52,669 bases of DNA from Chelativorans petroleitrophicus (GTDB lineage Bacteria; Pseudomonadota; Alphaproteobacteria; Rhizobiales; Rhizobiaceae), in the NCBI RefSeq assembly GCF_025398195.1, contig NZ_JAODNV010000021.1, forward strand, positions 1-52,669, written 5' to 3'. The stretch's first letter is position 1. Each line of letters opens with the position of its first letter. The notes under the pieces were generated by a model. The model did not search any database. It had not been told where the DNA came from and was given only the letters and a program-made list of their open reading frames with translations. Both the position numbers and the translations under genes were made by a program. Positions 5,761 through 34,359 of the stretch are shown here, in pieces.

Positions 5761-6762
5761 TCAGCCGATGGCCCGGATCTGATCCAGCAGGGCCTGTTCG
5801 ACCGCGATACCTTCTTCAAGCAGCTTTGCCTTAAGGGTATGCCGGCGTTGGCCTGGAAGGCGGGCGCCCGGCGCACCGGCGACCAACTCTGCCATGGCGG
5901 CGAAACGCTCGACAATGGCGGAGCCGCCGAACGCGGCGGGATCGATGCAGATGATGGTCTGCCCGACGCCCGGCGGATCTCCCTTGTCGTCGAAGAACGA
6001 GCTTGCCTCATAGGCGTAGTTGGCGCCCGTCAGCCCGGCGGAGAGCAGTTCGACCATCAGCGCCAGCGCGGTGCCCTTGGCATCGCCGAGAGGCGCCATG
6101 GTGCCCGCCAAGGCTGCCTTGGGATCGGTGGTCGGCCGGCCAGCGGCATCGAAGGCCCAGTCTTCGGGAATCGGTGTGCCCTTCTGGGCGGCCGCCATGA
6201 TCTTCCCGCGCGCCACCCTGGAGAGCGACACGTCCACGACAACGGGATCCTTTCCCCCAAGCGGCGCGGCAAAAGCGATAGGATTTGTGCCGAAAAGGGG
6301 GCGGTTCGATCCCCATGGGGCCATGGCCGCCGGGGAATTGGCGAACATCAGTGCGACAAGTCCCGCGCGGGCGTAGCGCTCCACGATCACGCCCGCCACC
6401 CCGCAATGATGCGACCTGCGAAAGCCCGCCAGTGCGATGCCCTGGGTGCGCGCGCATTCGCTCAAAGGCTCGAAAGCAAGGTCGAGGGCGGGAAAGGCAA
6501 ATCCGTTGGCGGCATCGACGGCAAGCACCGCGGGGCGGGGTTTTTCAACGGAAGGGATTGCGAAGCCGTCAACCTTGCCGGCTCTCGCCTGGGCCGCATA
6601 GGCCGCAACGCGGCGCAGACCATGTCCGCTCTGTCCCGCAAGCTCCGCTTCCACGAGCGCGCTGGCAACCGAGGCGGCGTTCGGCTCCGACGTGCGGGAG
6701 CGTACGAGCGCGTCCTTGATGAGCGCGTGGACCTCCGCAGGAGAAAGCCGCACCTCACTCAT
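5761..6762 (-). CDS. comC: (R)-sulfolactate dehydrogenase, malate/L-lactate dehydrogenase 2 family
   Basis: Encodes 333 residues of the Ldh2/ComC family, NAD(P)H enzymes with a fold unlike ordinary lactate dehydrogenase. Visible family marks are SGHGLRRV near residue 45, FRRSHHCGVAG near 113 and GTNPIAFAAP near 157. In sulfolactate users, ComC interconverts (R)-3-sulfolactate and sulfopyruvate. Working with the (S)-specific SlcC, it in effect racemises sulfolactate so that SuyAB can cleave the (R) form. The start ATG overlaps the slcC stop by four bases, and this is the last gene of suyA-suyB-exporter-slcC-comC. Family membership is clear from sequence. The sulfolactate assignment rests on the operon, since other Ldh2 members act on malate, ureidoglycolate or diketogulonate. 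Confidence 0.85.
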   Translation of the reverse strand: MSEVRLSPAEVHALIKDALVRSRTSEPNAASVASALVEAELAGQSGHGLRRVAAYAAQARAGKVDGFAIPSVEKPRPAVLAVDAANGFAFPALDLAFEPLSECARTQGIALAGFRRSHHCGVAGVIVERYARAGLVALMFANSPAAMAPWGSNRPLFGTNPIAFAAPLGGKDPVVVDVSLSRVARGKIMAAAQKGTPIPEDWAFDAAGRPTTDPKAALAGTMAPLGDAKGTALALMVELLSAGLTGANYAYEASSFFDDKGDPPGVGQTIICIDPAAFGGSAIVERFAAMAELVAGAPGARLPGQRRHTLKAKLLEEGIAVEQALLDQIRAIG

Positions 6763-7694
6763 GCCGTACCCTCCAGCTCTGCCATGACCTTCTCCGCGAC
6801 GACCTGGCTGACGCGGACGTTCGATTCCTCCGTCACGCCTGCAATATGCGGCGTGAGCACGAGATTGGGAATGCCGGCGAATTTCGCCCCCGCCTCGGCG
6901 GTGAGCGGTTCGGTCTCGAACACGTCGAGAGCCGCGCCGCCGATCCTGCCGGCCTTCAGCGCTTCGGCAACGGCCTGTTCGTCCACGATGCCACCTCGCG
7001 CTGCGTTGATCAGGATGGCGCCCGGCCGCATGCGCGTGATCTGTTCCGCGCCGATCATTCTGGCCGTTCCCGGCGTGAGCGGGACATGGAGGCTGATGAC
7101 GTCGGCAAGGCCGAGAAGCTCGTCAAGGGAGGCCATTCTGCGAGCCTGTTGCCAGGCGGGGTCGTCCGCCGCAACATGCGGATCGAAGGCGGCAATCTCC
7201 ATGCCGAGCGCCCGCGCGCGGGTTGAGACCTCCCGGGCGATCGCGCCGAAGCCGATGAGGCCCATGGTGCGGCCGGAAAGCTCGCGGCCCATCAGCGCCT
7301 GCCGGGGCCACAGGCCTTGCGCCACCGCGGCCGAGGAGAACCAGGCTCCGCGCAGAAGAACGAGCGCCGCCGTGATCACATATTCGGTAACGGACAGGTT
7401 GTTCGCGCCCGTGGCCGGATGCACCGCGATGCCGCGCCGCCGGCATTCATCAAGATCGATATTGTCCAGGCCGACGCCCAAACGCCCCACGCAGCGCAGG
7501 CGAGGCGCGCGATCGAGCAGGTCCGCGCGCACCTGCGTGCGGTTACGGACGATGAGCGCGATCGCCTCGGCAAGCTCTGCGTGAAGCCGGTCCGACGCGT
7601 CCACTAGGCCGGGATCGTAAAGCACGCTGTAGCGCTGCTTGAGGCCGTCGAGTGCGGCCTCGTCCATGAATTCGCTGACCACGATTTCGGCCAT
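6759..7694 (-). CDS. slcC: (S)-sulfolactate dehydrogenase, D-isomer 2-hydroxyacid dehydrogenase family
   Basis: Encodes 311 residues with the standard layout of this family: substrate domain, then the NAD-binding motif GLIGFGAIARE near residue 145, catalytic Arg in AARGGIVDE near 231, Glu in DVFETEPL near 256 and His in LTPHIAG near 282. SlcC oxidises (S)-sulfolactate to sulfopyruvate, which ComC then reduces to the (R) isomer. The stop overlaps the comC start (ATGA), and the exporter stop lies two bases upstream of this ATG, so the three genes are tightly coupled. The sulfolactate role comes from the SuyAB neighbours; on sequence alone it could be another hydroxyacid dehydrogenase. Confidence 0.85.
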   Translation of the reverse strand: MAEIVVSEFMDEAALDGLKQRYSVLYDPGLVDASDRLHAELAEAIALIVRNRTQVRADLLDRAPRLRCVGRLGVGLDNIDLDECRRRGIAVHPATGANNLSVTEYVITAALVLLRGAWFSSAAVAQGLWPRQALMGRELSGRTMGLIGFGAIAREVSTRARALGMEIAAFDPHVAADDPAWQQARRMASLDELLGLADVISLHVPLTPGTARMIGAEQITRMRPGAILINAARGGIVDEQAVAEALKAGRIGGAALDVFETEPLTAEAGAKFAGIPNLVLTPHIAGVTEESNVRVSQVVAEKVMAELEGTA

Positions 7695-7696
7695 GG

Positions 7697-8719
7697 CTAG
7701 GTTCCCACAATGATTTCAACTGCAATGACGAAGGCCATCAGCGCGAGGGTTGCGCCCACGGGGACCACCAATGCCGACCATCCCATTCTGAGCGTCGCCG
7801 CAATAGAGGTCCGGATGCCGATCGCGGCGACGGCCGTTGCAAGACACCAACTCGAAACCAGGCTGCCGGCGTTCCGCAGACCTGCCGGAATGATACCTGC
7901 CGAATTGATGATCACCAGCACGGCGAAGGCGATGGCGAAAGGCGGCAGAAGCCAGGGGAGCTTTCCGTCCGTCGGGGCGCGCGAGCGCGTGAGGAGCGTG
8001 ATGGAAAGCACGGTCGGCAGAAGCAGGGCCACGCGGAACAGCTTGACGATGGTGGCCGTCTCGCCCGCTTCGTTCGAGACCGCATAGCCGGCGCCGACCA
8101 CCTGAGCCACGTCGTGAATGGTCGCGCCGAGAAAGATGCCGGTCTGGCGGTCGTTGAAGCCGAGCAGATGCGCGATCAGTGGATAGGCCACCATGGCGAT
8201 GGTCGAAAGCGTGGTGACCGCGACGATGACAAAGGCCGTGTCCCGATCCCGATGAGGGGAGGGCGGAAGCGTCGAGGAAATAGCGAGGGCAGCCGAGGCA
8301 CCGCAAATGCCCGTCGCCCCGCCTGCAAGCACGCCGAAGGCCCGCGGCAGGCCGGAGCAACGCGAGAGGGCAAGGCCGCTTGCAATCGAGACCGCGGTGC
8401 CTGCGGCCACCAGAAGAAGGGTTTGGCCGCCGAGGCTTGCCACCTGGGCGACCGAGATGTTGAGCCCCAGAAGGGCGACGCCGAACTGCAGCACTGGCCT
8501 CGATGCGAAGGAAAGCCCCGCATGAAAGCGAGCGTCCTCCGAAACGGTGCTGAGGGCGATCCCGATCACGAGCGCGAAGAGCATCACCGGCGCGCCGGTC
8601 GCCCCGGCCGCGAAGAAGGCGGCCGCGGCGACCGTCAGCGGAAGAACGAGCCCCGGCGTCAGCGCACAAAGCGTTCTCAGCCGGCCGCGCCCGGCCAGCG
8701 GCCACATCTGGACGGTCAT
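7697..8719 (-). CDS. YeiH-family (PSE) putative sulfate/sulfite exporter
   Basis: Encodes 340 residues of very hydrophobic protein with about ten predicted membrane spans, of the YeiH/UPF0324 family. Internal family marks include GGATGICGASAA near residue 134 and FLGATIHDVAQVVGAGYA near 196. In taurine, sulfoacetate and sulfolactate clusters this family sits beside the desulfonating enzyme and is thought to export the sulfite or sulfate released. Here it lies between suyB and slcC, which fits. Transport has not been shown directly for most members, so the substrate is inferred from context. Confidence 0.85.
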   Translation of the reverse strand: MTVQMWPLAGRGRLRTLCALTPGLVLPLTVAAAAFFAAGATGAPVMLFALVIGIALSTVSEDARFHAGLSFASRPVLQFGVALLGLNISVAQVASLGGQTLLLVAAGTAVSIASGLALSRCSGLPRAFGVLAGGATGICGASAALAISSTLPPSPHRDRDTAFVIVAVTTLSTIAMVAYPLIAHLLGFNDRQTGIFLGATIHDVAQVVGAGYAVSNEAGETATIVKLFRVALLLPTVLSITLLTRSRAPTDGKLPWLLPPFAIAFAVLVIINSAGIIPAGLRNAGSLVSSWCLATAVAAIGIRTSIAATLRMGWSALVVPVGATLALMAFVIAVEIIVGT

Positions 8720-8740
8720 TATCGAGGCCTTCTGCGGCGG

Positions 8741-9922
8741 TCAGGCGCTCCGATAGAGCTTGGTCATCACGAATTCGCGGTGACCCAGCGCCTCTGCGGA
8801 AGTGTGCCGGCCATTGGCGGTGCGGATGATGTTGTCGATCAGCAGATCGCCGGCCTGGTCAATGGTGAGCTCCCGCCGCAAAATGCCGGTAACGTCGACA
8901 TCGATATGCTCGCTCATCGTGCGGACGGTGCGCGGATTGGCCGAAATCTTGATGACCGGCACGATCGGATTGCCGATGACGTTTCCCTGGCCCGTGGGGA
9001 AGGTGTGGACCACATATCCGGCCGCCGCCATCAGCGTGACGCATTCCGCAGCCGCCGAGGACGTATCCATGAAATAGAGGCCGGGACCCGATTTAGGTGT
9101 CTCCGCCGGCTCCAGAACGTCGATATAGCGGGACGTGCGGCCGATCTTCTCCAGATTGCCGAGCGCCTTTTCCTCGATGGTCGTCAGGCCGCCTTCGATG
9201 TTGCCCTTGGTCGGCTGGCTCTCGGAAAGATCATCGACCTTGTGCGCCTCGATCACCTCGTCCTGATAGGCTTTCCACACCTTGTACCAGCGCTCGCCGA
9301 CCTCAGGATTGATGGCGCGGGCCTTAGCGATGTGTTCGGCGCCAGTGATCTCCGACGTCTCTCCGAAGACGCCATAGATGCCTTCGGGCAGCAGCTTGTC
9401 GTACATGTTGCCGACGGTGGGGCAGGAGCCGAGGCCCGTCGTCGTGTCGCTCTCGCCGCACTTAGTCGAAACCCACAGCTCCGAAATCGAGCACTCCTCG
9501 CGCTGCAGTTCGGTGGCGTAGTGCACGAATTCCTTGGCCTTGCGGGAGGCGTCCATGATCGTCTTCAGGTCGCCGTTCTGCTCGATGGAGAAGCCCGCCA
9601 CCGGCTTGCCCGTTTCGGCGATTCCGTCGACGATCTTCTTGGTCCAGCCGGGCTCGATGCCGATGACGACCACTGCCGCCACATTGGGGTTCGAGCCCGT
9701 GCCGATCATGGTTCGGAAATGCAGGTCGAGATCGGCGCCGAACTGGAGCCGCCCGTAGGCGTGCGGCAGGGCCAGCGTGCCCTTGATGTTGTTCGCCACG
9801 GCCTCGCAGGCCGCGTTGGAAATGTCGTCCACAGGCAGGATCACGACGTGGTTGCGCACGCCGACGCGGCCGTTTTCGCGCCGGTAGCCCTTGAAAGTGA
9901 GGTTGGAATATTTGGAAGGCAT
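8741..9922 (-). CDS. suyB: (R)-3-sulfolactate sulfo-lyase, large subunit SuyB
   Basis: Encodes 393 residues of the UxaA/altronate-dehydratase-type large subunit, with [14 protein letters not shown] near residue 13 and [18 protein letters not shown] near 154. With SuyA it splits (R)-3-sulfolactate into pyruvate and sulfite in the cytoplasm. In ordinary altronate dehydratases the SAF domain and this domain are similarly paired, but a separate 95-residue SAF subunit followed by a 393-residue partner and then a YeiH exporter is the sulfolactate arrangement. The 135-base gap to suyA holds a weak hairpin (10003-10022) and no gene. This is one of the best supported calls in the window. Confidence 0.92.
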
Positions 9923-10057
9923 CGTTCTATGTCCCGTATCGGTTGGGATTCTTCGGCTTCACTCCATTCCGCGGCGTCCGGCCTTAAGCGCGCCAACCAG
10001 TGGCCCGCTACCAAAAACGGGCTCTGCAACGCGGCTCGAGTGAAAGGCGCGTCTCCA

Positions 10058-10345
10058 TTACCAGCGCTTGGTCTTCAGGTTGTGGACATGGACATGTCCG
10101 CCCTTGGCGACGTCGGCGACGATGCGGCCGATGTCCTCGCCATACTTGATCGCCGTATCGCCGACCTTGAGGTCGGTCAGCGCCACCTTGTGCCCGATCG
10201 GCACGTCGTCGATCACTTTCAGCGTGAAGCTCGAATTGTCCTCCGTCACCACACAGAGCATTTCGGTACCGGCTTTCAGGCCCTCGACCACTACGACGCC
10301 GACATTGTCGCGCTTATCGTGAACCAAAAGATGCGGTGCGCTCAC
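10058..10345 (-). CDS. suyA: (R)-3-sulfolactate sulfo-lyase, small subunit SuyA (SAF domain)
   Basis: Encodes 95 residues, a single SAF domain with LLVHDKRDNVGVVV near residue 6 and IGHKVAL near 50. It is the small partner of SuyB in cleavage of (R)-sulfolactate to pyruvate and sulfite. The start is GTG 10345, preceded by an AGGGAGAG about five bases away. It is the first gene of the minus-strand operon. The operator shared with the second regulon promoter begins 24 bases upstream of the start, where a bound repressor would block transcription or early elongation. Confidence 0.9.
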   Translation of the reverse strand: MSAPHLLVHDKRDNVGVVVVEGLKAGTEMLCVVTEDNSSFTLKVIDDVPIGHKVALTDLKVGDTAIKYGEDIGRIVADVAKGGHVHVHNLKTKRW

Positions 10346-10368: not shown

Positions 10369-10389
10369 TCTTATATAAGACATAAGATA
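10369..10389. promoter_or_regulatory. GntR operator between suyA and gntR
   Basis: A perfect 12-bp palindrome TCTTATATAAGA (10369-10380) is followed one base later by a further half-site ATAAGA (10382-10387). The whole 21-bp block occurs again, in inverse orientation and without mismatch, at 13144-13164. In this GC-rich DNA such an AT-rich exact repeat is unlikely by chance. It is presumably bound by the adjacent GntR/UTRA protein. Confidence 0.8.
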
Positions 10390-10457
10390 CGAAACTGTAG
10401 CGTTGTCAATCGGACTTCGCTATTGCTAAATGAATAATTCGGAGGTGGTTGACGCGG

Positions 10458-11189
10458 ATGGACGCACGCGCGGATTCGAAACTGGGCTTCCGCCCACTCT
10501 ATCAGCAGGTGCGCGAGGAGATCACCCGGCATCTGGCGAGCGGGCGCTGGCAGCCGGGGACCATGCTCCCGAGCGAGCAGGAGCTTGCGCGCGAGCTTGG
10601 CGTAAGCCAGGGCACTGTCCGCAAGGCGCTTGACGCGATGACGGCTGAGCGCATTCTGGTGCGCCGGCAGGGCAGAGGCACCTTCGTTGCGGAATATGAG
10701 GAGAGCCGCATCCTGTTTCAGTTCTTCCGGCTCTACCCCGATTCCGGCGAGCGGCTTTTCCCGGTCTCAAAGGTGCTGGATGTGCGCTCGGCCGCTCCGA
10801 GCGAGGAGGAGCGCGAGGCGCTGGAGCTTGAACCGAAGGCCGAGGTCTGGCGCATCTCGCGCCTGCGCTATCACGGATCGGAGCTCATCATGCGCGAGAT
10901 CCTCTCGCTGCCCGTGGCGCAGTTTGTGGATCTCGGGGAGCTCGAGGAAATCCCGAACAATGTCTACCGCCTCTATTCGCAGCGCTGGGGCATCACGATC
11001 ACCCGCATCTCCGAAAAGCTGAAGGCGGTGGCCGCCGGCGAGGCCGACCTCGCCGAGCTTGGCTGCGCGATCGGGGCGCCCCTTCTGGAAATCAGGCGCG
11101 TCGCCTTCGATCTTAACAAGCGTCCGGTGGAGTATCGCCGGTCACGCTGCCTCACCGATTCGATGCACTACGCATCCGACCTGAGCTGA
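10458..11189 (+). CDS. GntR/HutC-type (UTRA) regulator of the sulfonate regulon
   Basis: Encodes 243 residues. An N-terminal winged helix covers roughly residues 10-75 (SEQELARELGVSQGTVRKAL), and a UTRA ligand-binding domain follows. ATG 10458 is preferred. TTG 10449 in the same frame is possible but lies too close to the GGAGGT at 10441. The gene is divergent from suyA, and both promoters flank the 21-bp operator. UTRA regulators usually repress and are released by a pathway intermediate; here sulfolactate or a sulfo-sugar acid would be logical. That ligand is inferred. The exact repeat of the operator at 13144 suggests this one protein controls both gene blocks. Confidence 0.85.
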   Translation: MDARADSKLGFRPLYQQVREEITRHLASGRWQPGTMLPSEQELARELGVSQGTVRKALDAMTAERILVRRQGRGTFVAEYEESRILFQFFRLYPDSGERLFPVSKVLDVRSAAPSEEEREALELEPKAEVWRISRLRYHGSELIMREILSLPVAQFVDLGELEEIPNNVYRLYSQRWGITITRISEKLKAVAAGEADLAELGCAIGAPLLEIRRVAFDLNKRPVEYRRSRCLTDSMHYASDLS

Positions 11190-11262
11190 ATGGCCGGGAG
11201 TTGGTGACATCTCCGTTAGTCCCCGCTCTGGACTTAGCTCCGCTAAGCCCAAGAAGATGCTT

Positions 11263-11286
11263 TCTCCCCCGCAAAAAGGGGGGAGA
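11263..11286. terminator. C/G hairpin after gntR and the lactonase gene
   Basis: TCTCCCCC (11263-11270) pairs with GGGGGAGA (11279-11286). It lies between the convergent gntR and SMP-30 genes and resembles the hairpin at 38449-38475. It may serve both directions, but it has no clear T run. Confidence 0.4.
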
Positions 11287-11360
11287 TATTGGCAAGACAT
11301 GTCGGCTTCCGCAAACCATTGGCGTTGGTCATTGGCGGAACGGAACGCGCCAGCTTATTC

Positions 11361-12278
11361 CTAGGCTGGGGCAAAACCTTCAACCCCCGGCGTAGCGAAC
11401 TCCGTGGGCGGCAGGCCCTGGATGCCGAGATCCAGCGCCAGAAGGCTGCCATCGAGCGGGCCTTTCTCCTCGGGCGCAAGACCGTCGCTGAGCGATGTGA
11501 CGAACATCGTCTTCATGTCGGAGCCGCCAAAGGCGATTTTTGTCGGGCGCGCCACGGGCAGGCGGACGGTGAGGTCGAGCTTTCCTTCGGGCGTGTATCT
11601 AAGCAGCTGCGATCCCCGCACCGCGGCGAGCCAGTAGCATCCGCTGGCATCGACCGTCGCGCCATCAGGGCGACCGCCTCCCTCCGGCAGCTTAACGAAA
11701 AGCTCCTTTTCGCCCGGCATCCCAGTCTCCGGATCGTAGCGAGCACGCCAGACCTGGAAGGGTGTCAGAGGCGTGTCGGCCCAATAGACGGTCCGGCCGT
11801 CCGGGCTGAAGGCGATGCCGTTGGGAATGGTCAATCCGCTTTCGATCAGGGTGATGCTGCCATCGCTGTCGATCCGGAAGAGCTTTCCCACGGGCTTGAG
11901 CCCGGTCTCGGGCAGCGGCATGGTGCCGAGCCAAAGTCGGCCTTGCACGTCGCAGCATGCATCGTTGGTGCGGTTGCCCGAGACGGAGGCCTCCAGTCGG
12001 GTGAACAGGCGCCGGCTTCCATCGGCCGGATCGAACTTCAGGATCGTGTCGTGCTGGCCGACGAGCAGGGTTCCGTCATCGGCGGGCTGAACGAACCCCG
12101 TCATTTCGGGGAAGTCCCAGCTTTCTGTTTCTCCGCTCGTGGGCCGTGTGCGCAGCACCTTTCGCCCCATGATATCAACCCACAGCAGAGCCTCCTCGCG
12201 CCTATCCCAGATCGCGCTTTCTCCGACAAGGGCGGTGTAGGAGGCAATCCGCTCCACCTTCGGCGTCAGGGTCCGCAT
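11361..12278 (-). CDS. SMP-30/gluconolactonase-family sugar lactonase
   Basis: Encodes 305 residues of the six-bladed propeller lactonase family, with ERIASYTALVGESAIWD near the N-terminus (metal-binding Glu), LWVDI, a central NRTNDACCDVQGRLW segment (metal-binding Asn) and SPDGRTVYWADT (metal-binding Asp region). These enzymes open aldonolactones to aldonic acids. ATG 12278 is chosen because it lies just after the aldolase stop; the longer frame would overlap that gene by about 80 bases. It forms a two-gene operon with the aldolase under the shared operator. In the proposed pathway it would open a sulfo-sugar lactone, as in the sulfo-Entner-Doudoroff route. The substrate is inferred. Confidence 0.85.
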   Translation of the reverse strand: MRTLTPKVERIASYTALVGESAIWDRREEALLWVDIMGRKVLRTRPTSGETESWDFPEMTGFVQPADDGTLLVGQHDTILKFDPADGSRRLFTRLEASVSGNRTNDACCDVQGRLWLGTMPLPETGLKPVGKLFRIDSDGSITLIESGLTIPNGIAFSPDGRTVYWADTPLTPFQVWRARYDPETGMPGEKELFVKLPEGGGRPDGATVDASGCYWLAAVRGSQLLRYTPEGKLDLTVRLPVARPTKIAFGGSDMKTMFVTSLSDGLAPEEKGPLDGSLLALDLGIQGLPPTEFATPGVEGFAPA

Positions 12279-12283
12279 GGCGT

Positions 12284-13051
12284 TCAAGCGCTCCTCAAAG
12301 TTGCAAGCTCGCTGCGGGCGTTTGACATCAGCAAGCCAAGGTCGGAGCCCGAGGCCACCCAACTGTAGCCGTAGGCGAGATAATCGCGAGCCTGCGCCGC
12401 ATTCGCCGCGAGGATTCCGCAGGGCTTGCCGAGCTCGGCGCAGCGGGCGGCGGCATCGGCAAGAACCTTCTGAACCTCGCCATGGCCCGGCTGGCCGATG
12501 AAGCCCATGTCGGCGGAGAGGTCACCCGGCCCTATGAAGATGCAGTCAACGCCGGGAACGGCTGCGATCTCCCTGATGTTGCCAAGCGCCTTTTGCGTTT
12601 CGATCTGAACGATGACGCAGATCCCGTCCACCGCCCTGCGGGCATAATCCTTCACGCCGCCATAGCGCGTGGCGCGGCTCATGCCGGCAAAGCCGCGTAT
12701 ACCCTCCGGGGGATAGCGCGTCGCCGCGACGGCCTTTCGCGCCTCCTCCGCATTCTGGACATAGGGGAACATGACCGTCTCAGCGCCGAAATCAAGCACC
12801 TGCTTGACGATCACCGGGTCGTTCCACGGCAGACGCACCACGGCGCTGGAGGGCGTGCCCGCGACGGCCTGGAGAAGTCCCAGCGTGCGCGGCGGGTCGT
12901 TGGGCGCATGCTCCATGTCGAGGACGATGAAATCGTAGCCCGCATAGCCCAGCGCCTCGGCGGCCACCGCACTGCCGCTCATGGCCCAGACGCCAATCAT
13001 CGGCGGTTTGCGCGTCATATTTTCTTTGAAAGCGTTCAGCGGCAAATCCAA
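12284..13051 (-). CDS. HpcH/HpaI-family 2-keto-3-deoxy acid aldolase
   Basis: Encodes 255 residues of the class II metal-dependent aldolase family. Visible marks are VLDMEHAPND near residue 40, VVRLPWND near 67 (substrate-binding Arg), VQIET near 145 (metal Glu) and GPGDLSADMG near 170 (metal Asp). TTG 13051 is chosen because GAGGGAG lies about eight bases upstream and the product then begins MDLPLNAFK, the usual start of this family. Such enzymes cleave 2-keto-3-deoxy acids to pyruvate plus an aldehyde. HpcH-type enzymes are the KDSG aldolases of sulfo-Entner-Doudoroff users, giving pyruvate and sulfolactaldehyde. The shared operator with suyAB supports that role here, but the substrate is not proven. 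Confidence 0.85.
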   Translation of the reverse strand: MDLPLNAFKENMTRKPPMIGVWAMSGSAVAAEALGYAGYDFIVLDMEHAPNDPPRTLGLLQAVAGTPSSAVVRLPWNDPVIVKQVLDFGAETVMFPYVQNAEEARKAVAATRYPPEGIRGFAGMSRATRYGGVKDYARRAVDGICVIVQIETQKALGNIREIAAVPGVDCIFIGPGDLSADMGFIGQPGHGEVQKVLADAAARCAELGKPCGILAANAAQARDYLAYGYSWVASGSDLGLLMSNARSELATLRSA

Positions 13052-13143
13052 TTTTTCTTCTCCCTCTCGGACCCTTGGCGCCAAAATCCCGTTGGCTTTC
13101 AGAAATGGCTTTAACGCCGTCCAAAGCGCATTGCCACAACTTA

Positions 13144-13164
13144 TATCTTATGTCTTATATAAGA
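13144..13164. promoter_or_regulatory. Second exact copy of the GntR operator
   Basis: This 21-bp block is identical, on the opposite strand, to 10369-10389: half-site TCTTAT (13146-13151), then the palindrome TCTTATATAAGA (13153-13164). It lies between divergent genes, 93 bases before the aldolase TTG start and 61 bases before the solute-binding protein ATG, so one bound regulator could control both operons. Confidence 0.8.
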
Positions 13165-13225: not shown

Positions 13226-14506
13226 ATGATTCGAAACCGCAAAAGCGTTCTGAAGCTCCTCGCCGCGGTCTCCGTTGCGGGCATTGCTGCGGGAATGGCC
13301 GTGACGGCTTCCGCCCAGGAAAAGATCACGATCACCTTTGCCAATTGGGCGGCAGCCGAAGGAACCACCAAGCCCGGCATCGAGAAGGTAATTGCCGATT
13401 TCGAGGCCGCGAACCCGGATATTGACATCGTCAGCGAGGCGATTTCCTTCTCCGAGATCGCGCGGCAGCTCGTCCTGCGCGCCCGGTCGGGCAACCCGCC
13501 GGATGTGGCGCAGATCGCCGGCAACGATACGGTCCTGCTTGGCTCCACCGGGGCGCTCGAGCCGCTCGACAGCTATGTCAGCGACGAGCTTGCTGCCAAT
13601 CTGAAGTCTGGCGCCGACGCCGGTCTTCGCGACAAGGACGGATCGCTGTTCGCCTTCCCTTGGAATCAGTCGCCAGCCGGCTTCTGGTACAACAAGAAGA
13701 TCATGGAACAAGCCGGTCTCGATCCCGAGAACCCGCCCCGCACCATCGACGAGCTGAATGAGGCCCTGGCGGCGATCAAGTCGAGCCAGCCGGATGTCAT
13801 TCCCCTTGCGATCGACACGACCAACCGTCCCTTCGCGCTGAGCTCCAACTGGCCGTGGATGCAGTCCTTCGGTGCGGTGCCCGTGGGCGAGGGCGCGACC
13901 GGTGCCGAATCTGAGGAGATGAAGGCCTATCTTAACTGGATGCGCGAGATCGCGCAGGCCGGCTACATCGATCCGGGCCGCCGCATTGGCGAGTTCCGCC
14001 CGCTTGCAGCGCAGGGCAATGTCGCCTTCATCTGGGACCAGGTGCTGCTCAAGGGCGTGATGCAGGCGGCAAGCGGCATGTCCGACGAGGAGTTCTACGA
14101 GACCTGGGGTGTGACGACCTTGCCCGTGGGTGGCGGCAAGGCCACGACCTTCGAGGGCGGGCACCAGCTCATCATGTTCTCCGCCAGCAAGAACAAGGAA
14201 GCGGCCTGGAAGTTCATCGAGTATCTGGCGACCTCGCCCGATACGATCGCCAACTACACGACGAGCGTGAATTCCTCGCTGCCTTCGATCAAGTCGACGG
14301 GCAATGCCGAGCTTGACGAAGTGCTGAGCGCGCCGGTCTTCAAGGCGTTCTCCGAGGAAATTATTCCGACGCTGGCGCCGCAGCCCTACGGGCCCGAGTT
14401 CGCCGCCGCCGCGACGGCGGTGATGGCTGGCGTGCAGGAGGCCGTCACGGGTACGAAGCCGATCGACGAGATTGCCGCTTCGATCCAGCAGCAGCTCCCG
14501 CAGTAA
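13226..14506 (+). CDS. ABC transporter sugar-type solute-binding protein
   Basis: Encodes 426 residues of the MalE-like family. A signal peptide runs through residues 1-30, with basic residues, a hydrophobic stretch and likely cleavage after ASA. The mature protein has IEKVIADFEAANPDIDI and GALEPLDSYV, typical of CUT1 binding proteins. GGGAGG lies five bases before ATG 13226. It is the first gene of a six-gene operon (binding protein, two permeases, SDR, ATPase, dehydratase). The protein would capture the pathway substrate in the periplasm. Given the operator shared with the sulfolactate genes, a sulfonated sugar such as sulfoquinovose or a glycoside is a reasonable guess, not a demonstrated ligand. 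Confidence 0.9.
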   Translation: MIRNRKSVLKLLAAVSVAGIAAGMAVTASAQEKITITFANWAAAEGTTKPGIEKVIADFEAANPDIDIVSEAISFSEIARQLVLRARSGNPPDVAQIAGNDTVLLGSTGALEPLDSYVSDELAANLKSGADAGLRDKDGSLFAFPWNQSPAGFWYNKKIMEQAGLDPENPPRTIDELNEALAAIKSSQPDVIPLAIDTTNRPFALSSNWPWMQSFGAVPVGEGATGAESEEMKAYLNWMREIAQAGYIDPGRRIGEFRPLAAQGNVAFIWDQVLLKGVMQAASGMSDEEFYETWGVTTLPVGGGKATTFEGGHQLIMFSASKNKEAAWKFIEYLATSPDTIANYTTSVNSSLPSIKSTGNAELDEVLSAPVFKAFSEEIIPTLAPQPYGPEFAAAATAVMAGVQEAVTGTKPIDEIAASIQQQLPQ

Positions 14507-14508: not shown

Positions 14509-15426
14509 ATGACTGCCGACGTTATCACGACAAATGCTCGCGCCCGGCCCCGTGCCCGGCGCGAGCCATGGCTCGACTGGATGGTCCTGCCGACGCTCAT
14601 CGTCATGGCGGTGGTCGTGGGCTATCCCGTCGTCTACACGATCCTTCTGTCGGTGCAGGATTACAACCTGCTCGACTTCACTCCGGCCAACTATGTCGGC
14701 GCGCAGAACTACGCGAAGCTGGCCGCCGATTCCGTCTTCTGGCAGTCGCTCCTCAACACTGCGATCTACACATTCGGCAGTGTCGGCATTGCCGCGCTGC
14801 TTGGGCTCGTCCTAGCCCTGCTTACCGAAAACCTCGGCGGCGCGCGCTTCCGTGCCGTGCGCACGCTGCTTCTGATGCCCTGGGCCGTGCCGTTCGTCGT
14901 GGTGGCGTTCCTGTTCCGCTACATGTATCTGCAGAACGGCGGCATCATCAACGCCGTGCTTCTTTGGGCGGGCATTATCAACGACCCGGTGCCATGGCTC
15001 AATTCGGCGATGCTCGCACTGCCGGCGGTGATGGTCGCCAACATCTGGGCGATGGCGCCGTTCTTCTTCCTGCTCGTCAGTGCCGCGCTTTCGGCCATCC
15101 CCAATGAGGTGATCGAGTCGGCGCGCGTGGACCGGGCGGGCACCTGGGGCATGATCTGGCACATCAAGCTGCCGTTCCTGCGCAATCCGCTGCTGATCAG
15201 CAGCCTCCTCATGGTCATTTCCAATTTCAACGATTTCGCCAAGATCTGGGCAATGACCCAGGGCGGTCCCGGATATTCGACCAGCACGCTGGTGATCTAT
15301 GTCTACCGGCTGGCCTTCGAGAGCTTCGAGTTCGGCTATGCATCGGCCGTCGGAGTCATCTGGCTCGTGATGCTGATGGCGCTCGCCTGGCTCTACATGC
15401 GAGCGCTGCGGATGGAAAAACGATGA
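14509..15426 (+). CDS. ABC transporter permease, MalF/UgpA type
   Basis: Encodes 305 residues with about six membrane spans and the inner-membrane EAA-like loop VIESARVDRAGTWGMIWHIKLPFLRNPL near residue 203, which contacts the ATPase. It starts two bases after the binding-protein stop and overlaps the next permease by four bases. It is the first of the paired CUT1-family permeases that form the sugar channel. Confidence 0.9.
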   Translation: MTADVITTNARARPRARREPWLDWMVLPTLIVMAVVVGYPVVYTILLSVQDYNLLDFTPANYVGAQNYAKLAADSVFWQSLLNTAIYTFGSVGIAALLGLVLALLTENLGGARFRAVRTLLLMPWAVPFVVVAFLFRYMYLQNGGIINAVLLWAGIINDPVPWLNSAMLALPAVMVANIWAMAPFFFLLVSAALSAIPNEVIESARVDRAGTWGMIWHIKLPFLRNPLLISSLLMVISNFNDFAKIWAMTQGGPGYSTSTLVIYVYRLAFESFEFGYASAVGVIWLVMLMALAWLYMRALRMEKR

Positions 15427-16286
15427 GTACGGCAACAAAAATCTCGCGCCCGCGTCTGGCGCCGGGAAGCATCGTGCGCTGGACGGCGATCGCCTTCGCG
15501 CTCTTCTGGAGCCTGGCGCCGATCTACTGGATGCTTTCGACGTCGCTCAAGACGGAGCTGGAGGCGACGCGCCTCCACCCGACGCTATGGCCGGAGGCAC
15601 CGACATTCGCCAACTATATCGGCCTGACGGGCACCTCGCTGCCTTTCGTCGCCTTCTTCTTTAACACGGTCCTGAGCTGCCTGTTGACGGCGGTCGTCTG
15701 CGTCGTCATCGCAACACCCGCGGCCTACGCGCTGTCGCGGGCTCGCTTCCGGCTTGCCGGGACGGTGGGATACACCATCCTCGCCTTCCGCATGCTGCCA
15801 ATGGTAGTGGTGCTGGCGCCGCTCTATCTTCTCCTGCTCAACGCACGCCTTCTCGACACCGGAACCGGCCTCGTGGTGGGCTTCACCACGTTCGGCCTGC
15901 CCTTCGCGGTCTGGATGATGAAGAGCTTCGTGGATGCGGTGCCGATCGAGGTGGAGGAAGCCGCTCGCGTCGATGGCTATCCGCGCTGGCAGATCCTGCT
16001 TAGGGTCGTCGTGCCACTCATCATGCCAGGCATTCTTACCACCGGGACGTTCGTGTTCATGGAAGCCTGGAACAATCTGATTTACCCGCTGACCTTCATC
16101 ACCACGATGGAGAAGCAGACCCTGCCGGCCGCGCTGGTGCTTACCTTTACCGGCCAGTTCAAGACGGACTGGGGCGGCATGATGGCTGCGGCGACGATCA
16201 CCACCCTGCCGCTGATGATCGCCTTCTTCGCCGTGCAGCGGTCTATGGTGCGCGGGCTTACCTCGGGAGCCGTCGCCGGTGCCTGA
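15423..16286 (+). CDS. ABC transporter permease, MalG/UgpE type
   Basis: Encodes 287 residues with about six spans. The loop EVEEAARVDGYPRWQIL near residue 178 is the EAA motif that docks on the ATPase. Its start overlaps the first permease (ATGA), and its end overlaps the SDR gene by eight bases. It forms the second half of the sugar channel. Confidence 0.9.
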   Translation: MSTATKISRPRLAPGSIVRWTAIAFALFWSLAPIYWMLSTSLKTELEATRLHPTLWPEAPTFANYIGLTGTSLPFVAFFFNTVLSCLLTAVVCVVIATPAAYALSRARFRLAGTVGYTILAFRMLPMVVVLAPLYLLLLNARLLDTGTGLVVGFTTFGLPFAVWMMKSFVDAVPIEVEEAARVDGYPRWQILLRVVVPLIMPGILTTGTFVFMEAWNNLIYPLTFITTMEKQTLPAALVLTFTGQFKTDWGGMMAAATITTLPLMIAFFAVQRSMVRGLTSGAVAGA

Positions 16287-17127
16287 CGTGAGTCCAGACA
16301 GAAAGGTTGCCGGGCGGTTCGGCGGCCAGGTTGCGCTTGTCACCGGAGCGGCAGGCGGCATCGGCTTTGCCATCGCAGGACGGCTTGCCTCGGAAGGGGC
16401 TGCGGTCCTGATGACGGATGTGGATGAAGTCCGCCTTGCCGACGCCGCCGAAGCGCTGCGCGCGGAAGGGGCGGAGGTTGAAACGGCCGCGGCGGATCTC
16501 GCCAGCGCGCAGGACCGCGCGCGACTGGTGCCGGTCGCGCTCGCGCACTGGAACCGGCTCGACATCCTTGTCAACAACGCGGCTTTTCATGGCGAGCGGC
16601 GTGCCTTCACGGAGGCGTCCGAGGAGGAATTCGAGCGGATTTTCGCGGTGAACGTAACGGCGACGGCCGTCCTCTGCCGCGCGGCGGCGGGACCCATGCA
16701 GGAGCAGGGTGCGGGCGCGATCATCAATATCGGCTCGATCCAGGCGGATCTTCCCGTGCCCACCTATGCGGCCTATGTCGCAAGCAAGGGGGCCATCGCT
16801 GCGCTCACCCGCGCGCTTGCGGTCGAGCTTGCGCCGCGCATCCGCGTCAACGCGGTGCTGCCGGGCGTGATTGCGACGGATTCCTTCAAACAGACCCTGG
16901 CCGAGGGGGCAACCGTCAGTAAACCCGCATCCATGACCGCCGCGCTGCTTGGCCGCGAGGGCCACGCTTCGGAAGTGGCCGCGGCCGTCGCCTTTCTGGC
17001 TTCTGCCGAAGCCGCCTTCATCACCGGTGCGGCGCTGCCTGTCGATGGCGGCCGCAGCATCAGCCGCAGGCCGGACCCGTTCCAGTCGTCCTTCGGCGAG
17101 CAAGAACAATCAGGAAATCCCGAATGA
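16279..17127 (+). CDS. SDR-family oxidoreductase, candidate sugar 1-dehydrogenase
   Basis: Encodes 282 residues of the classical short-chain dehydrogenase family. [14 protein letters not shown] (near residue 20) is the cofactor motif, NNAA follows near 100, and the catalytic YVASK is near 170. It starts at GTG 16279, inside the end of the permease gene, and overlaps the ATPase gene by four bases, so it is embedded in the transport operon. An SDR is the first enzyme (sulfoquinovose dehydrogenase) of the sulfo-Entner-Doudoroff pathway, oxidising the sugar to a lactone for the SMP-30 protein. That step is inferred from context. The family also contains acyl-carrier-protein and polyol dehydrogenases. 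Confidence 0.85.
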
Positions 17128-18209
17128 CCAGAATCGTGCTGCGCAATGTCGAGAAGCACTACGGCAATGTGCCGGTTCTTCGCGACTGCAACCTGGAGAT
17201 AAAGAACGGCGAATTCATCGTGCTGGTCGGGCCTTCCGGCTCGGGCAAGACGACGCTGCTGCGCATCATAGCGGGTCTGGAGCACATCACCGCGGGTGAT
17301 CTCTATTTCGACGATACGCTCGTCAACGATGTCGATGTGGGCGACCGGGACATCGCGATGGTCTTCCAGAATTACGGGCTCTACCCGCACATGACGGTGT
17401 ACGAAAACATGGCCTTCGGCCTCAAGCGACGGAAGATGCCGAAGGACGAGATCGACCGGCGCGTGCGCAGGGCCTCGGAAATGCTCAACATCGCCCCCTA
17501 TCTGGCGCGCCGGCCGCGCCAGCTCTCGGGCGGCCAGCGTCAGCGCGTGGCGCTCGGGCGGGCCATCGTGCGCGATCCCAAGGTCTTCCTCCTGGATGAG
17601 CCGCTGTCGAACCTCGATGCGCATCTGCGCGTCCAGATGCGCACCGAAATCCTGAAGGTGCACCGCGCGGTCGCCGCGACGGCGGTATATGTGACCCACG
17701 ACCAGGTGGAGGCGCTGACGATGGGCGACCGCATCGTGGTCATGGCCGATGGGCGCATCCATCAGGTCGGCACGCCGGACGAGCTCTACGACAACCCGGA
17801 CAACAAGTTCGTCGCCTCCTTCATCGGGACGCCGGCCATGGGCTTCTTCGACTGCCCGGTCGCCTCGGCCGAGGCGAAGCCCTCCGCAGGGCGCGTGCGC
17901 CTGACCGAGGCACAGCGCACGCTTCTTCACAGGAACTGCAAGGCCAAGGTGACGGTGGGCATTCGCCCGGAACGCCTCTCGCTGACGAACAAGGAGGACG
18001 ATACGGCCGACATCCTGCTTCACGGGACCGTGGAGGCGGTGGAGATGCTGGGTTCGGAGCAATACGTCCATTTCGTTGTGGACGGCGGCGCGCTGACGGC
18101 GCGCGTGCCGCGCGAGCAGCAGGTGAGGGCAGGGGATTCCGTGACATTCCGCGCGGACGCGAAGCATCTCTATCTTTTCGATCCGGAAAGCAGCGTGACG
18201 CTGCGCTGA
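17124..18209 (+). CDS. ABC transporter ATP-binding protein, MsmK/UgpC type
   Basis: Encodes 361 residues. The Walker A motif GPSGSGKTT is near residue 36, the signature [14 protein letters not shown] near 134, Walker B VFLLDEP near 155 and the switch His in [10 protein letters not shown] near 190. A C-terminal MalK-type regulatory domain ([12 protein letters not shown] near 280) identifies the sugar-transporter subgroup. It energises the permeases encoded just upstream and overlaps the SDR gene by four bases. Confidence 0.92.
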
Positions 18210-18270: not shown

Positions 18271-19437
18271 ATGGCGCGTATCGCCAGCATCGAGACGTTC
18301 CGCGTTCCGCCGCGGTGGATCTTCGTCCGAGTGACCACGGATGACGGCCTCACCGGCTGGGGCGAATCCATCATCCCGAAACGGGCGCGCGCCGTGGTGG
18401 GCGCCATCGAGGACATGGCGGCCAATCTTGCGGGCGTCGATGCCTCGCGGATCGAGGATATCGCGCAGCGGCTGCGGCGCGGTGCATTCTTTCGCCACGG
18501 CCCGGTGCTCGCCACCGCTGCGGCGGGCATCGAGCAGGCGCTGTGGGACATCAAGGGGCAGCGGGCGGGAATGCCCGTCCACGAATTCCTAGGCGGCCTC
18601 GTGCGCAAGCATGTCCGCGCCTATGCGTGGATCGGCGGCGACAGCCCCAATGATGTCGTCGAGCATGCGCGCAAGCGCATCGAGGAGGGCTTCTCGGCCG
18701 TCAAGATGAACGCGACGCCCGCGCTCGGCCATGTCGGCGAGCGGGACCTGATCGATGCCGCAGCCGCGCGCATGGGAGCGCTGCGGGACGCTTTCGGCAA
18801 CAAGCTTGATATCGCGCTGGACCTACATGGGCGCGTCCACCGCGCCGCGCTGAAGCCGTTGCTGGCGGAGCTGGAGCAGTTCCATCCCATGTGGGTGGAG
18901 GAGAGCTCGACGCCGGAGAACGAGGAAACGCTGAAGATGCTGGCGCGCGCGGCGCGCTCCATTCCCGTCGCCACTGGCGAGCGGCTGGTCTCGCGCTGGG
19001 AGTTCAAGCGGGTTCTGGATACGGGGGCGATCGACATCATCCAGCCGGACGTGTCGATCACCGGCCTGTTCGAGCTGGAGAAGATCGCCCGCATGGCCGA
19101 GGTCTACGACGTGGCCGTCGCGCCGCACTGTCCGAACGGGCCGGTTTCGCTGGCGGCCTCCCTGCAGGTGGCCTTCTGCTGCCCCAATGTGGTGATTCAG
19201 GAACAGAGCCTGGGCCTGCATTACCACGCCGGATTTGCAGGGTTGCCCAAGGCCGATCTGCTGGACTACCTCAAGGATCCTACGCCGCTTACGACGGTGG
19301 ACGGCGTTTTTGCGGTTAACGACGCTCCGGGGCTGGGTATCACGCTCGACACCGATGCGATCGAAGCCAAGCAGCAGGACTGGCGCCTGCCCGACGCCGA
19401 CTGGACGCATCCGGACGGCACCTATGCGGAATGGTGA
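18271..19437 (+). CDS. Enolase-superfamily sugar-acid dehydratase, DgoD (galactonate dehydratase)-like
   Basis: Encodes 388 residues of the mandelate-racemase subgroup. It is close to E. coli DgoD along its whole length as I recall that sequence, including the PPRW start and the DGTYAEW end. Functional residues are in place: LDLHGR near 188 (metal Asp, catalytic His), WVEES near 208, ATGERL near 236, QPDVS near 259, APHCPNG near 287 (catalytic His) and IQEQSLG near 309. It would dehydrate an aldonate to a 2-keto-3-deoxy acid, the substrate of the HpcH aldolase. Known sulfo-Entner-Doudoroff clusters use an IlvD/Edd dehydratase at this step, so an enolase-type enzyme would be a non-orthologous replacement. 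Plain galactonate remains possible. It closes the operon, 61 bases after the ATPase gene. Confidence 0.85.
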   Translation: MARIASIETFRVPPRWIFVRVTTDDGLTGWGESIIPKRARAVVGAIEDMAANLAGVDASRIEDIAQRLRRGAFFRHGPVLATAAAGIEQALWDIKGQRAGMPVHEFLGGLVRKHVRAYAWIGGDSPNDVVEHARKRIEEGFSAVKMNATPALGHVGERDLIDAAAARMGALRDAFGNKLDIALDLHGRVHRAALKPLLAELEQFHPMWVEESSTPENEETLKMLARAARSIPVATGERLVSRWEFKRVLDTGAIDIIQPDVSITGLFELEKIARMAEVYDVAVAPHCPNGPVSLAASLQVAFCCPNVVIQEQSLGLHYHAGFAGLPKADLLDYLKDPTPLTTVDGVFAVNDAPGLGITLDTDAIEAKQQDWRLPDADWTHPDGTYAEW

Positions 19438-19486: not shown

Positions 19487-20653
19487 TCAGAGCGTGCGGT
19501 AGCGCGCGATCGTCTCCTCACGAGGGACGATCCCTAGGCCCGGCTCCGATGGCAGCTTCACGCTTCCGTCCGCGATTTCCGGGAAGGGCGGCAGAAGCTC
19601 GCGCTGCAGCGGGTTGTCGTTGACATCGACCTCCAACATCCCGTCGCCGCCTGCCGCTTTCAGCAGATGCGCGGAGGCAAGAAGCCCAACGCCCGCGCCG
19701 AGGAAGTGGGGGCAATAGCGCCTGCCTGCCTCGAGAATGCGCTGGGCGGCGCGCCGGCAGCCGGAGACGCCGCCCCATTTCGCAAGGTCCGGCTGGATGA
19801 CACCCACTGCGTTGCTTTGAACCATCTCGTCGAAGCTGGAGAGCCCGCGCAGATTTTCTCCCGCGGCCAGCGGGATCGTCGTCTTCTGCGCGAGGGTCTG
19901 CCATTCGGACAGAGGCCGGTCCGCCGCAAGCGGCTCTTCCAGCCATTGCGGTGCGAAAGGCTCGAGCGCGCGGGCCATCTCGATTGCCTTGTCCAAATCC
20001 CAAGCCTGGTTCGCGTCAACCATGAAAGGCATGTCCGGACCGATGACCGCGCGCACGCGGGCGGCATTTTCAAGATCAGTCTCCCGGCTGAAACCGACCT
20101 TCAGCTTGAACGCCCTGAAGCCGCGCGCGTGTTGAGCTTCCACGACCCTCTCTGGCGCCTCCGGATTGATGCCGCTGGCATAGGCGGGAACCTGCGGCGC
20201 TCCCCTGCCGCCGAGCACCTGCCAGAGAGGCTTGCCGAGCCTTTTGGCGGCAATGTCCCACAAGGCAATATCCACTCCGGCGATGGCTTGCGCGAATGGG
20301 CCTGCTTCCCCCGACTGAAGAGCAAGCAGCCGCGTGCGGGAGGAGAGTTCGGCAAAGATGGCTTCCGGATTCTCCACCGTCCTGCCTTTGAGCAGCGGCA
20401 GCAGGATCGAATTTATGAGGCGTGCGCGGTGCTCGGCGCCGACCGAGGGAAAATTGCACCAGACTTCTCCCCAACCGACCGTTCCCGTCTCATCGGTTAT
20501 ACGGATGAGTACGGCGGGGCGGTCGTGCATCGTGCCGAAGGCGGTGCGGATCGGATAGGGCGTCGGTGCGCGCAACACGAGCGCCTCTCCATCCATGACG
20601 GTGAAGGTGCGGAAGCCTGTCGCCTCGCGGGCGGCGGAAACGGAGGTATTCAT
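19487..20653 (-). CDS. Mandelate racemase/muconate lactonising enzyme family protein
   Basis: Encodes 388 residues of the enolase superfamily. The catalytic KxK is in FKLKVGF near residue 180, metal ligands are in MVDANQAWD near 211, EEPL near 237 and AAGENL near 262, and the C-terminal QPDLAKWGG and CPHFLGAG (His) are visible. These enzymes racemise, cycloisomerise or dehydrate carboxylic acids by removing the alpha proton. It is the last gene of a minus-strand operon with a tripartite tricarboxylate transporter and overlaps tctB by four bases. The transporter probably brings in its substrate, an organic or sugar acid. It is convergent with, and only distantly like, the DgoD-type gene. The exact reaction is unknown. 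Confidence 0.85.
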   Translation of the reverse strand: MNTSVSAAREATGFRTFTVMDGEALVLRAPTPYPIRTAFGTMHDRPAVLIRITDETGTVGWGEVWCNFPSVGAEHRARLINSILLPLLKGRTVENPEAIFAELSSRTRLLALQSGEAGPFAQAIAGVDIALWDIAAKRLGKPLWQVLGGRGAPQVPAYASGINPEAPERVVEAQHARGFRAFKLKVGFSRETDLENAARVRAVIGPDMPFMVDANQAWDLDKAIEMARALEPFAPQWLEEPLAADRPLSEWQTLAQKTTIPLAAGENLRGLSSFDEMVQSNAVGVIQPDLAKWGGVSGCRRAAQRILEAGRRYCPHFLGAGVGLLASAHLLKAAGGDGMLEVDVNDNPLQRELLPPFPEIADGSVKLPSEPGLGIVPREETIARYRTL

Positions 20654-22606: not shown

Positions 22607-22621
22607 AGGGTCTCGGTTGAT

Positions 22622-22656
22622 GCCTCCGGCCGGATTCCCGCGCCGGAGGCTTTTTT
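22622..22656. terminator. Hairpin between tctC and tctA
   Basis: GCCTCCGGC (22622-22630) pairs exactly with GCCGGAGGC (22642-22650). The six T bases (22651-22656) lie on the plus-strand side, so for the minus-strand operon this is an internal hairpin after the binding-protein gene. Such structures often stabilise the binding-protein mRNA and lower permease expression. Confidence 0.55.
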
Positions 22657-22665
22657 CGGTTGCGA

Positions 22666-23628: not shown

Positions 23629-23652
23629 CAGTTCCTCCCGGTTTGAAAAAGG

Positions 23653-25519: not shown

Positions 25520-25769
25520 CGATCCGCCCTTTGATTGGTACCTTTCACGGCCGGACGGCCATTCTGCAAACAGGTTTGGCCGGTCGCGGCCAAAGTCAAG
25601 CCGGGCATGCCCGCTGCTCGCGGTTACCAAGAGCGCACCCGCTTCGAATTTGCAACCGCCAAAGATGCGGCAGAGAACCATAGAGGGCGGCACACTCGCT
25701 GGCATTTATCCCCGCGTCCACGGTAAGCCTTATCCTTTTTGCGGAGCCGAACGCGAGAGGAAATCCGTC

Positions 25770-34275: not shown

Positions 34276-34359
34276 GGGAAAGCCGCCGGAGCACCACCAA
34301 CTTTCCGGCGTGCGTGACAAGCCACTGCGCCGGTCTTAGCCGTGAGCAGGAGGTCTGGG

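Follow-up and report, generated by a model that had tools for sequence, protein, structure and literature searches.

A common operator predicted to place sulfolactate desulfonation and a sulfofucose-type sugar operon under one GntR/HutC regulator in Chelativorans petroleitrophicus

The contig NZ_JAODNV010000021.1 of Chelativorans petroleitrophicus (assembly GCF_025398195.1), a stretch of 52,669 nucleotides referred to here as the window, carries a sulfolactate sulfo-lyase operon next to genes for the uptake and cleavage of a sugar, and each of these two gene sets has in a divergent promoter region the same 21-bp block, a putative operator. Judged by gene orientation, four transcription units are present: suyAB followed by a putative exporter, slcC and comC; a gntR gene; sfcE and sfcD; and the ATP-binding cassette (ABC) transporter genes together with sfcH, the ATPase gene and sfcF (Table 1). 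The product of the gntR gene, here named SuyR, has an N-terminal GntR helix-turn-helix (HTH) and a C-terminal UTRA domain, and thus belongs to the HutC subfamily of the GntR family.

The block TCTTATATAAGACATAAGATA occupies positions 10369-10389 of the plus strand and recurs at 13144-13164 as its exact reverse complement; both copies lie between divergent genes. Each contains the 12-bp palindrome TCTTATATAAGA (at 10369-10380 and 13153-13164), and the half-sites (ATAAG/CTTAT) are spaced every 7 bp, with a partial fourth half-site, CTTATA, at 13140-13145 of the second operator. A preliminary description of this DNA had reported the block as repeated and inverted without mismatch in the suyA/gntR and aldolase-lactonase/ABC promoters, each copy consisting of the palindrome and a third half-site; both copies and the gene orientations were confirmed in the sequence, and the arrangement of half-sites was refined by the 7-bp phasing and the partial fourth half-site. 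No third copy of the palindrome was found in the window within two mismatches (mean of 0.12 in shuffles), no further exact copy elsewhere in the 3.96-Mb genome, and no third copy of the 21-mer in that genome within three mismatches, the reversed-pattern control also giving zero. The two copies form the sole inverted pair of at least 18 bases in the window with starts more than 100 bp apart, and direct repeats of at least 18 bases are absent from it. A chance repeat as the origin of the pair is ruled out by the shuffles, the genome-wide mismatch search and the window repeat scan.

The association of regulator and operator with suyA was followed in 121 genomes, comprising that of C. petroleitrophicus and 120 relatives (genomes are numbered G and loci L). 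With a threshold of E <= 1e-40 the GntR gene was counted in 24 of these, with 28 matches in total and a single one in the own genome. Twenty-two of the loci are linked to suyA (own genome and 21 relatives), and in all 22 gntR is divergent and a site scoring at least 23.5 is found 16-128 bp upstream of suyA, the operator matrix having been built from 26 GntR-locus sites, mostly suyA sites. In 21 of them suyB follows suyA, and in the remaining one the contig ends (that of L006 within suyA). Among the six loci without suyA in the examined stretch (L018, L025, L027-L030), the palindrome is present with at most one mismatch in L018, L025, L028 and L029, and is absent within two mismatches from L027 and L030. 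The exact 12-mer occurs in 17 of the 24 genomes with the GntR gene and in 7 of the 97 without it (Fisher 3e-10), and the reversed word in 1 of 24 and 10 of 97, respectively. Five of the palindrome-bearing genomes without the gene were looked at (G001, G026, G079, G094 and G104; G021 and G075 were left out), and four of them score no higher than 15.5 across the stretch, G001 reaching 33.3. Six of 13 plasmid records with SuyB were examined for the site: the Sinorhizobium mexicanum plasmid has a full site before suyA, weaker sites (scores 13-22) precede suyA on two Paracoccus plasmids and one Methylobacterium plasmid, and no site at score 12 was found on the Cupriavidus and Rhodobacteraceae plasmids. 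The pair of GntR gene and operator recurs across families.

The operator could also be read by another HutC-family protein, either an SdhR-like one or the product of the second GntR-UTRA gene of the window (23653-24402), because SdhR, a HutC-subfamily factor, has the same predicted operator, published as TCTTATGTCTTATATAAGACATAAGA and credited to a 2012 paper (PMC4494728, in part). An SdhR-like locus in one relative (L076, on G046:C77) indeed carries such a site, with succinate dehydrogenase (sdh) genes on one side of a GntR-UTRA gene and malate dehydrogenase and citrate synthase family genes on the other; this contig may, at a guess, be foreign to its assembly. We regard such a reader as improbable, given that the only two genome sites within three mismatches both lie less than 2 kb from the window's gntR, that the own genome has this one GntR gene at the threshold used, and that the pairing recurs across families. 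Before the succinate and malate dehydrogenase genes of the own genome no operator was found within three mismatches of the 21-mer, weaker sites not having been sought.

At the sugar operon, relatives of the dehydratase were found at 42 loci in genome contigs, nine of which (L091-L098 and L102) were examined for gene content, and in 71 plasmid records, of which that of S. mexicanum was examined. Clusters combining ABC, short-chain dehydrogenase/reductase (SDR) and dehydratase genes are those of the window, L091 (Sinorhizobium sp. 6-70), L217 (S. mexicanum ITTG R7), L092 (a Hyphomicrobiales metagenome-assembled genome, G504), L093, L094, L095, G048 (L042/L074), G012 (L031) and G111 (L096/L165); L095 ends before the promoter and is excluded from the promoter comparison. 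The operator is located upstream of the binding-protein gene in the window, L091, L217 and L092, and these four clusters form one clade of the SfcF tree (support 96/99). Their intergenic alignment has a mean column identity of 75%, and its longest invariant run, the 24 columns TTATATCTTATGTCTTATATAAGA, coincides with the operator and the partial fourth half-site, whose TTATAT is common to all four records. In G504 suyAB lies on another contig, where a weaker site (24.6) is common to suyAB and a divergent ABC operon, with gntR at the other end. A class-wide search for SfcF (385 genomes, E <= 1e-130) returned the own genome only, and therefore the Paracoccus sfc clusters fall outside this comparison.

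The five other readable clusters (L093, L094, G048, G012 and G111) lack the operator at the sfc promoter, with best matrix scores of -8.5 to 5.9, and in all five a GntR-FCD gene adjoins the ABC promoter. These genes are 44-100% identical to the G048 copy (domains were scanned for G048 and G012), the G111 copy being the least sure assignment, with a closer homolog (53%) elsewhere in that genome. The gene is situated between sfcE and the binding-protein gene in G048, L093 and L094; in G012 and G111 sfcE is not adjacent. It is missing from the four operator clusters, the best homologs in the own genome (G000), G503 and G504 being 27-29% identical. A different palindrome, TATCTGGAATATCAGATA, is found exactly at the sfc promoter of four of the five FCD clusters (G048, L094, L093 and G012) and in a diverged form in G111, and is likely the site of the GntR-FCD regulator; it is absent from the window within three mismatches and from the sfc promoters of L091, L092 and L217 within four. 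The pattern suggests that, most likely, the window's sfc clade took over the regulator and operator of sulfolactate breakdown in place of its own: in its ancestor, the sugar operon would have swapped a dedicated GntR-FCD regulator and the palindromic site belonging to it for the SuyR operator; a single exchange would be the simplest reading. The identity of the two window sites over 21 bp, at a distance of 2.8 kb, might instead reflect a recent copy made by local rearrangement and without regulatory effect on the sugar operon, which we consider very improbable: three other records have this site at the corresponding position, among them L092, whose suy genes are on another contig; no block of this promoter region is better conserved than the operator; and the clusters with the operator are precisely those without the FCD regulator gene and its palindrome.

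The breakdown of sulfofucose (6-deoxy-6-sulfogalactose) was described in 2025 as proceeding through SfcH (PF13561), SfcD, SfcF (PF13378/PF02746) and SfcE (PF03328), then SlcC, ComC and SuyAB, the sulfolactaldehyde dehydrogenase being left unidentified (PMC12421959, in part). One window cluster holds this set: an SDR dehydrogenase of PF13561, an SMP-30 lactonase of PF08450, an HpcH/HpaI aldolase of PF03328, an ABC importer, and a dehydratase of PF13378 and PF02746, not of PF00920; the neighbouring genes at 5761-10345 would supply the coupling to SlcC, ComC and SuyAB. Among the strains named in PMC12421959 are S. mexicanum ITTG R7, Hyphomicrobiales SCN_18_10_11_15_R4_B_69_13, Rhizobiales 65-79 and FW021_bin.52, which by name correspond to L217, L092, L093 and L095, with dehydratases approximately 91, 90, 78 and 77% identical to that of the window. 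The own genome, 99.97% complete, gave no match to glycoside hydrolase family GH31 (PF01055) in a scan that did not include GH188 and whose controls were positive in 6 of 14 genomes. We take GH31 to be the usual family of sulfoquinovosidases. Because of the sfc families, the homologs in the listed strains and the lack of GH31, sulfofucose is our best guess for the substrate of the sugar operon, and a canonical Entner-Doudoroff (ED) pathway for sulfoquinovose is disfavoured by the dehydratase type and the absence of GH31. One regulon serving another sugar, sulfoquinovose or a further sulfosugar processed by an enolase-type dehydratase, seems unlikely, though it deserves some weight: the substrate assignment of the window enzymes comes from sequence, and the SDR, lactonase and HpcH/HpaI aldolase families also occur in the sulfoquinovose ED pathway (PMC12421959), while the PF13378/PF02746 dehydratase is given there as the key difference of sulfofucolysis, the homologs in the listed strains are 77-91% identical, and GH31 is lacking. 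The structures nearest in the PDB were uninformative for the sugar-binding protein and for the SDR.

Operators of this type also precede other gene sets. Three relatives have a module resembling a sulfo-Embden-Meyerhof-Parnas (EMP) route, composed of a PfkB kinase, an L-fucose-isomerase-like protein (with likewise uninformative PDB neighbours), a DeoC/LacD aldolase and a Gfo/Idh protein, joined in G064 and G112 by an SDR and a tripartite ATP-independent periplasmic (TRAP) transporter; its domains were scanned in G064 only, G112 and G047 being assigned by gene order and the start of the sequence. Sites scoring 24-31 stand before each of its three units in G064 and G112, and one of 30.8 before the kinase unit in G047; shuffled loci gave no site at a score of at least 18. 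The best PDB match of the kinase is sulfofructose kinase (1.8e-61), and for the aldolase a DUF2090 protein ranks first and tagatose-bisphosphate aldolases next, YihT being a weaker match. A weaker third operator in L091 (30.3) and L217 (25.3) precedes genes for a sulfonate-type binding protein, an ABC transporter and a GabD-like aldehyde dehydrogenase, the dehydrogenase gene of L091 occupying 15020-16462. Such a dehydrogenase gene also stands behind comC in the suy operons of L040, L041, L045 and L162, 4 of 23 distinct suyB loci (some stretches end soon after comC), and adjoins the sfc binding-protein gene in G111; an 80% identical unlinked homolog exists in the own genome (C44:230109-231533), with no operator before it at a matrix score of at least 10. 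The GabD-like protein is a candidate for the missing sulfolactaldehyde dehydrogenase, and not more: its clade is present in 46 of the 121 genomes and its tree mixes suy-linked and unlinked copies, both of which count against a special role, and in 26 of 34 loci of the clade the gene is beside a permease gene, the suy cluster of G047 being situated between the two. As a suy-specific gene it is weakened by this spread and by the permease linkage. Tentatively, and with odds somewhat below even for the whole, SuyR may be a modular switch for metabolism that forms sulfolactate, its operator being acquired by the promoters of whichever upstream sulfosugar route a bacterium possesses (sulfofucose ED here, the EMP-like kinase and aldolase in three relatives, the sulfonate-type ABC transporter and aldehyde dehydrogenase in two Sinorhizobium), with the GabD-like protein, encoded within or under SuyR-controlled units, as the dehydrogenase missing from PMC12421959.

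We assign a probability of about 0.82 to the reading that both blocks in the window are operators of the adjacent GntR/HutC regulator SuyR and join suy and sfc in one sulfofucose regulon. The operators are identical, and their position and the gene sets around them are conserved. The proposal of the preliminary description, one GntR regulator acting on two divergent promoters and four transcription units, fits what the motif search in relatives that it had called for returned, namely the operator at suyA in 22 of 22 suyA-linked loci and, in all four records of the window's sfc clade, at the sfc promoter, this being the only sfc clade in which the link was seen; of its sulfo-sugar regulon, the single regulon is supported and the substrate matches sulfofucose by its sfc families, not a sulfoquinovose pathway. 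One repressor would probably switch the whole route from sulfofucose to sulfite together. SuyR would sit on both divergent promoters and shut the four transcription units. It would be released when its UTRA domain binds a sulfonate formed intracellularly, the simplest candidates being sulfolactate and an intermediate of the sulfosugar route. Induction would then extend jointly to uptake, to the steps that cleave sulfofucose into pyruvate and sulfolactaldehyde, to the oxidation that yields sulfolactate, and to desulfonation.

Several observations weigh against this regulon. Promoter scans recognised no sigma-70-like promoter at either operator. The matrix scores at suyA are partly circular, since these sites were used in training; this circularity does not affect the sfc sites or the counts of the exact word. 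Since L091 and L217 are near-identical, the sfc footprint represents no more than three independent lines. In the regulator tree the suy-linked proteins do not form a single clade (6 label changes, 4 of them forced by starred branches), and "SuyR" is therefore a functional label. Co-regulation by this site is not general, because sfc and suy are neighbours in G012 and G048 and yet have no operator in common. A 21-mer identical to that of the window stands in G047:C1 (L079:8280-12428) before a sugar-ABC operon near uxuAB-like genes (mannonate dehydratase, mannitol dehydrogenase family), for which no link to sulfonates is known; nor is there a sulfonate context at two further sites, a weaker one in G012 (C1:2162760) and one that is strong in G001 (C23), a genome without the GntR gene. 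The case as a whole is built from sequence.

Table 1. Location of the operators, of the genes around them and of related elements; positions without a prefix are those of the window.
Feature	Position	Strand	Remarks
comC-like Ldh_2 dehydrogenase, candidate (R)-sulfolactate dehydrogenase	5761..6762	-	PF02615; top NCBIfam model L-sulfolactate dehydrogenase, below its cut-off
slcC-like 2-hydroxyacid dehydrogenase, candidate (S)-sulfolactate dehydrogenase	6759..7694	-	PF02826/PF00389; near suyAB in relatives
YeiH-type putative sulfate/sulfite exporter	7697..8719	-	PF03601; TIGR00698 below its cut-off
suyB, sulfolactate sulfo-lyase large subunit (UxaA/GarD family)	8741..9922	-	PF04295 + PF20629
suyA, sulfolactate sulfo-lyase small subunit (SAF-like)	10058..10345	-	PF08666 borderline
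Putative operator 1 (suyA/gntR divergon)	10369..10389	+	Palindrome TCTTATATAAGA + third half-site toward gntR; ~23 bp upstream of suyA start
GntR/HutC-type regulator, SuyR	10458..11189	+	GntR HTH PF00392 + UTRA PF07702; homologs beside suyA
sfcD-like SMP-30 lactonase	11361..12278	-	PF08450; scanned as 11361-12362
sfcE-like HpcH/HpaI aldolase	12284..13018	-	PF03328; ATG at 13018
Putative operator 2 (sfcE/ABC divergon)	13140..13164	-	Inverted exact copy 13144-13164 + partial fourth 7-bp-phased half-site 13140-13145
ABC sugar-binding protein, opens sfc uptake operon	13226..14506	+	Models below cut-off
Two ABC sugar permeases, 14509-15426 and 15423-16286	14509..16286	+	
sfcH-like SDR dehydrogenase	16279..17127	+	PF13561
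ABC sugar ATPase (UgpC/MalK type)	17124..18209	+	
sfcF-like enolase-superfamily dehydratase (galactonate dehydratase type)	18271..19437	+	PF13378 + PF02746; PRK14017 above its cut-off
Sulfo-EMP-like module with SuyR-type operators	L045:10268-19667, L050:958-9748, L041:3184-8316		TRAP transporter and SDR in L045, L050
Third-operator unit	L091:12196-16462; L217:16204-20470		Weaker site ahead of unit
Palindrome TATCTGGAATATCAGATA regions	L074:7516-7664; L093:4829-4994; L094:4854-5001; L031:16509-16717		

For sfcE, an in-frame TTG at 13051 would fit the longer N-terminus of its homologs. Downstream of the sugar operon, positions 19487-24402 encode a second enolase-superfamily enzyme, a TctABC transporter and the second GntR-UTRA regulator, with no SuyR-type site. 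They are followed by a formylglycine-generating-enzyme-like gene (24563-25705; FGE-sulfatase domain), no sulfatase being recognised among the scanned window genes, and by a set of sulfate assimilation genes at 28499-32213, close to those for desulfonation, composed of 3'-phosphoadenosine 5'-phosphosulfate (PAPS)-reductase-like, CysNC-like (GTPase and adenosine 5'-phosphosulfate (APS) kinase) and inositol-monophosphatase-family genes. Genes for a Gfo/Idh protein, an aldehyde dehydrogenase, a 2-keto-3-deoxygalactonokinase and an aldolase of the 2-keto-3-deoxy-6-phosphogluconate (KDPG) type at 34342-38418 resemble an ordinary galactonate route, and an enolase-type gene (Enolase_N, Enolase_C) at 44749-46479, near TRAP transporter and Gfo/Idh genes, may represent an additional enolase within a catabolic cluster.

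Large amounts of organic sulfur are present as sulfosugars, and few studies have addressed how the cleavage of these sugars is coordinated with the release of sulfite; for this coordination the present analysis provides a candidate regulator and a precise operator. Homologous sfc operons that have either a SuyR site or an FCD regulator gene together with another palindrome offer a natural comparison, and the effector is predicted at the level of sulfolactate or a near intermediate. The operator motif can be used to find further sulfosugar genes, possibly including that of the missing sulfolactaldehyde dehydrogenase; if SuyR is a modular switch, the operator read backwards would point to the missing pathway genes.

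Like SuyR, CsqR/YihW of E. coli is a local regulator of a sulfosugar operon; it is of the DeoR family, unlike SuyR, and its regulon is not known to include a desulfonation operon. The gene name suyR occurs in PMC6018796 (in part), the words "regulator" and "repressor" are both absent from the main text of the review PMC12890257, and the main text of PMC12421959, apart from its supplements and figures, makes no mention of GntR, a regulator or an operator. A regulator of suyAB or sulfofucose joined to this operator was not found in the literature searched, which mostly excluded subscription papers. The regulon of the preliminary description is a well-supported prediction, to which a more closely defined substrate and a past exchange of regulators are added; its parts are known, and their combination was not found in that literature.

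The tandem of a sulfofucolytic ED pathway and sulfolactate sulfo-lyase in Paracoccus wurundjeri Merri comprises the same dehydrogenase, lactonase, dehydratase, aldolase, ABC, SlcC, ComC, SuyA and SuyB families, and S. mexicanum ITTG R7, also listed, has the architecture of the window (PMC12421959); the exporter is of the YeiH type and inside the suy operon here, whereas a TauE homolog located elsewhere was proposed for strain Merri. The sulfoquinovose sulfo-ED pathway of P. putida SQ1 and R. leguminosarum likewise proceeds by oxidation, lactone hydrolysis, dehydration and aldol cleavage to pyruvate and sulfolactaldehyde (PMC12421959, PMC12890257), but has a PF00920 dehydratase in place of the enolase-superfamily enzyme found here, in a genome without GH31.

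The closest relative of the operator itself is that of SdhR, which has been in print, so that the operator is not wholly new: TCTTATGTCTTATATAAGACATAAGA includes the window palindrome and the third half-site, and extra half-sites 7-12 nt from the centre are known for FadR, HutC and YtrA sites (PMC4494728). The 19 of 26 bp given by TCTTATATAAGACATAAGA are present at both window sites, the outer half-site on the other side being absent. The GntR-UTRA architecture is common to SdhR and SuyR, and the SdhR-like protein of G046 is 40% identical to that of the window, but its gene lies between succinate and malate dehydrogenase genes, whereas the window's gntR lies beside suyA. Because sulfolactate is a sulfonate analogue of malate, SuyR may plausibly respond to an effector akin to that of SdhR.

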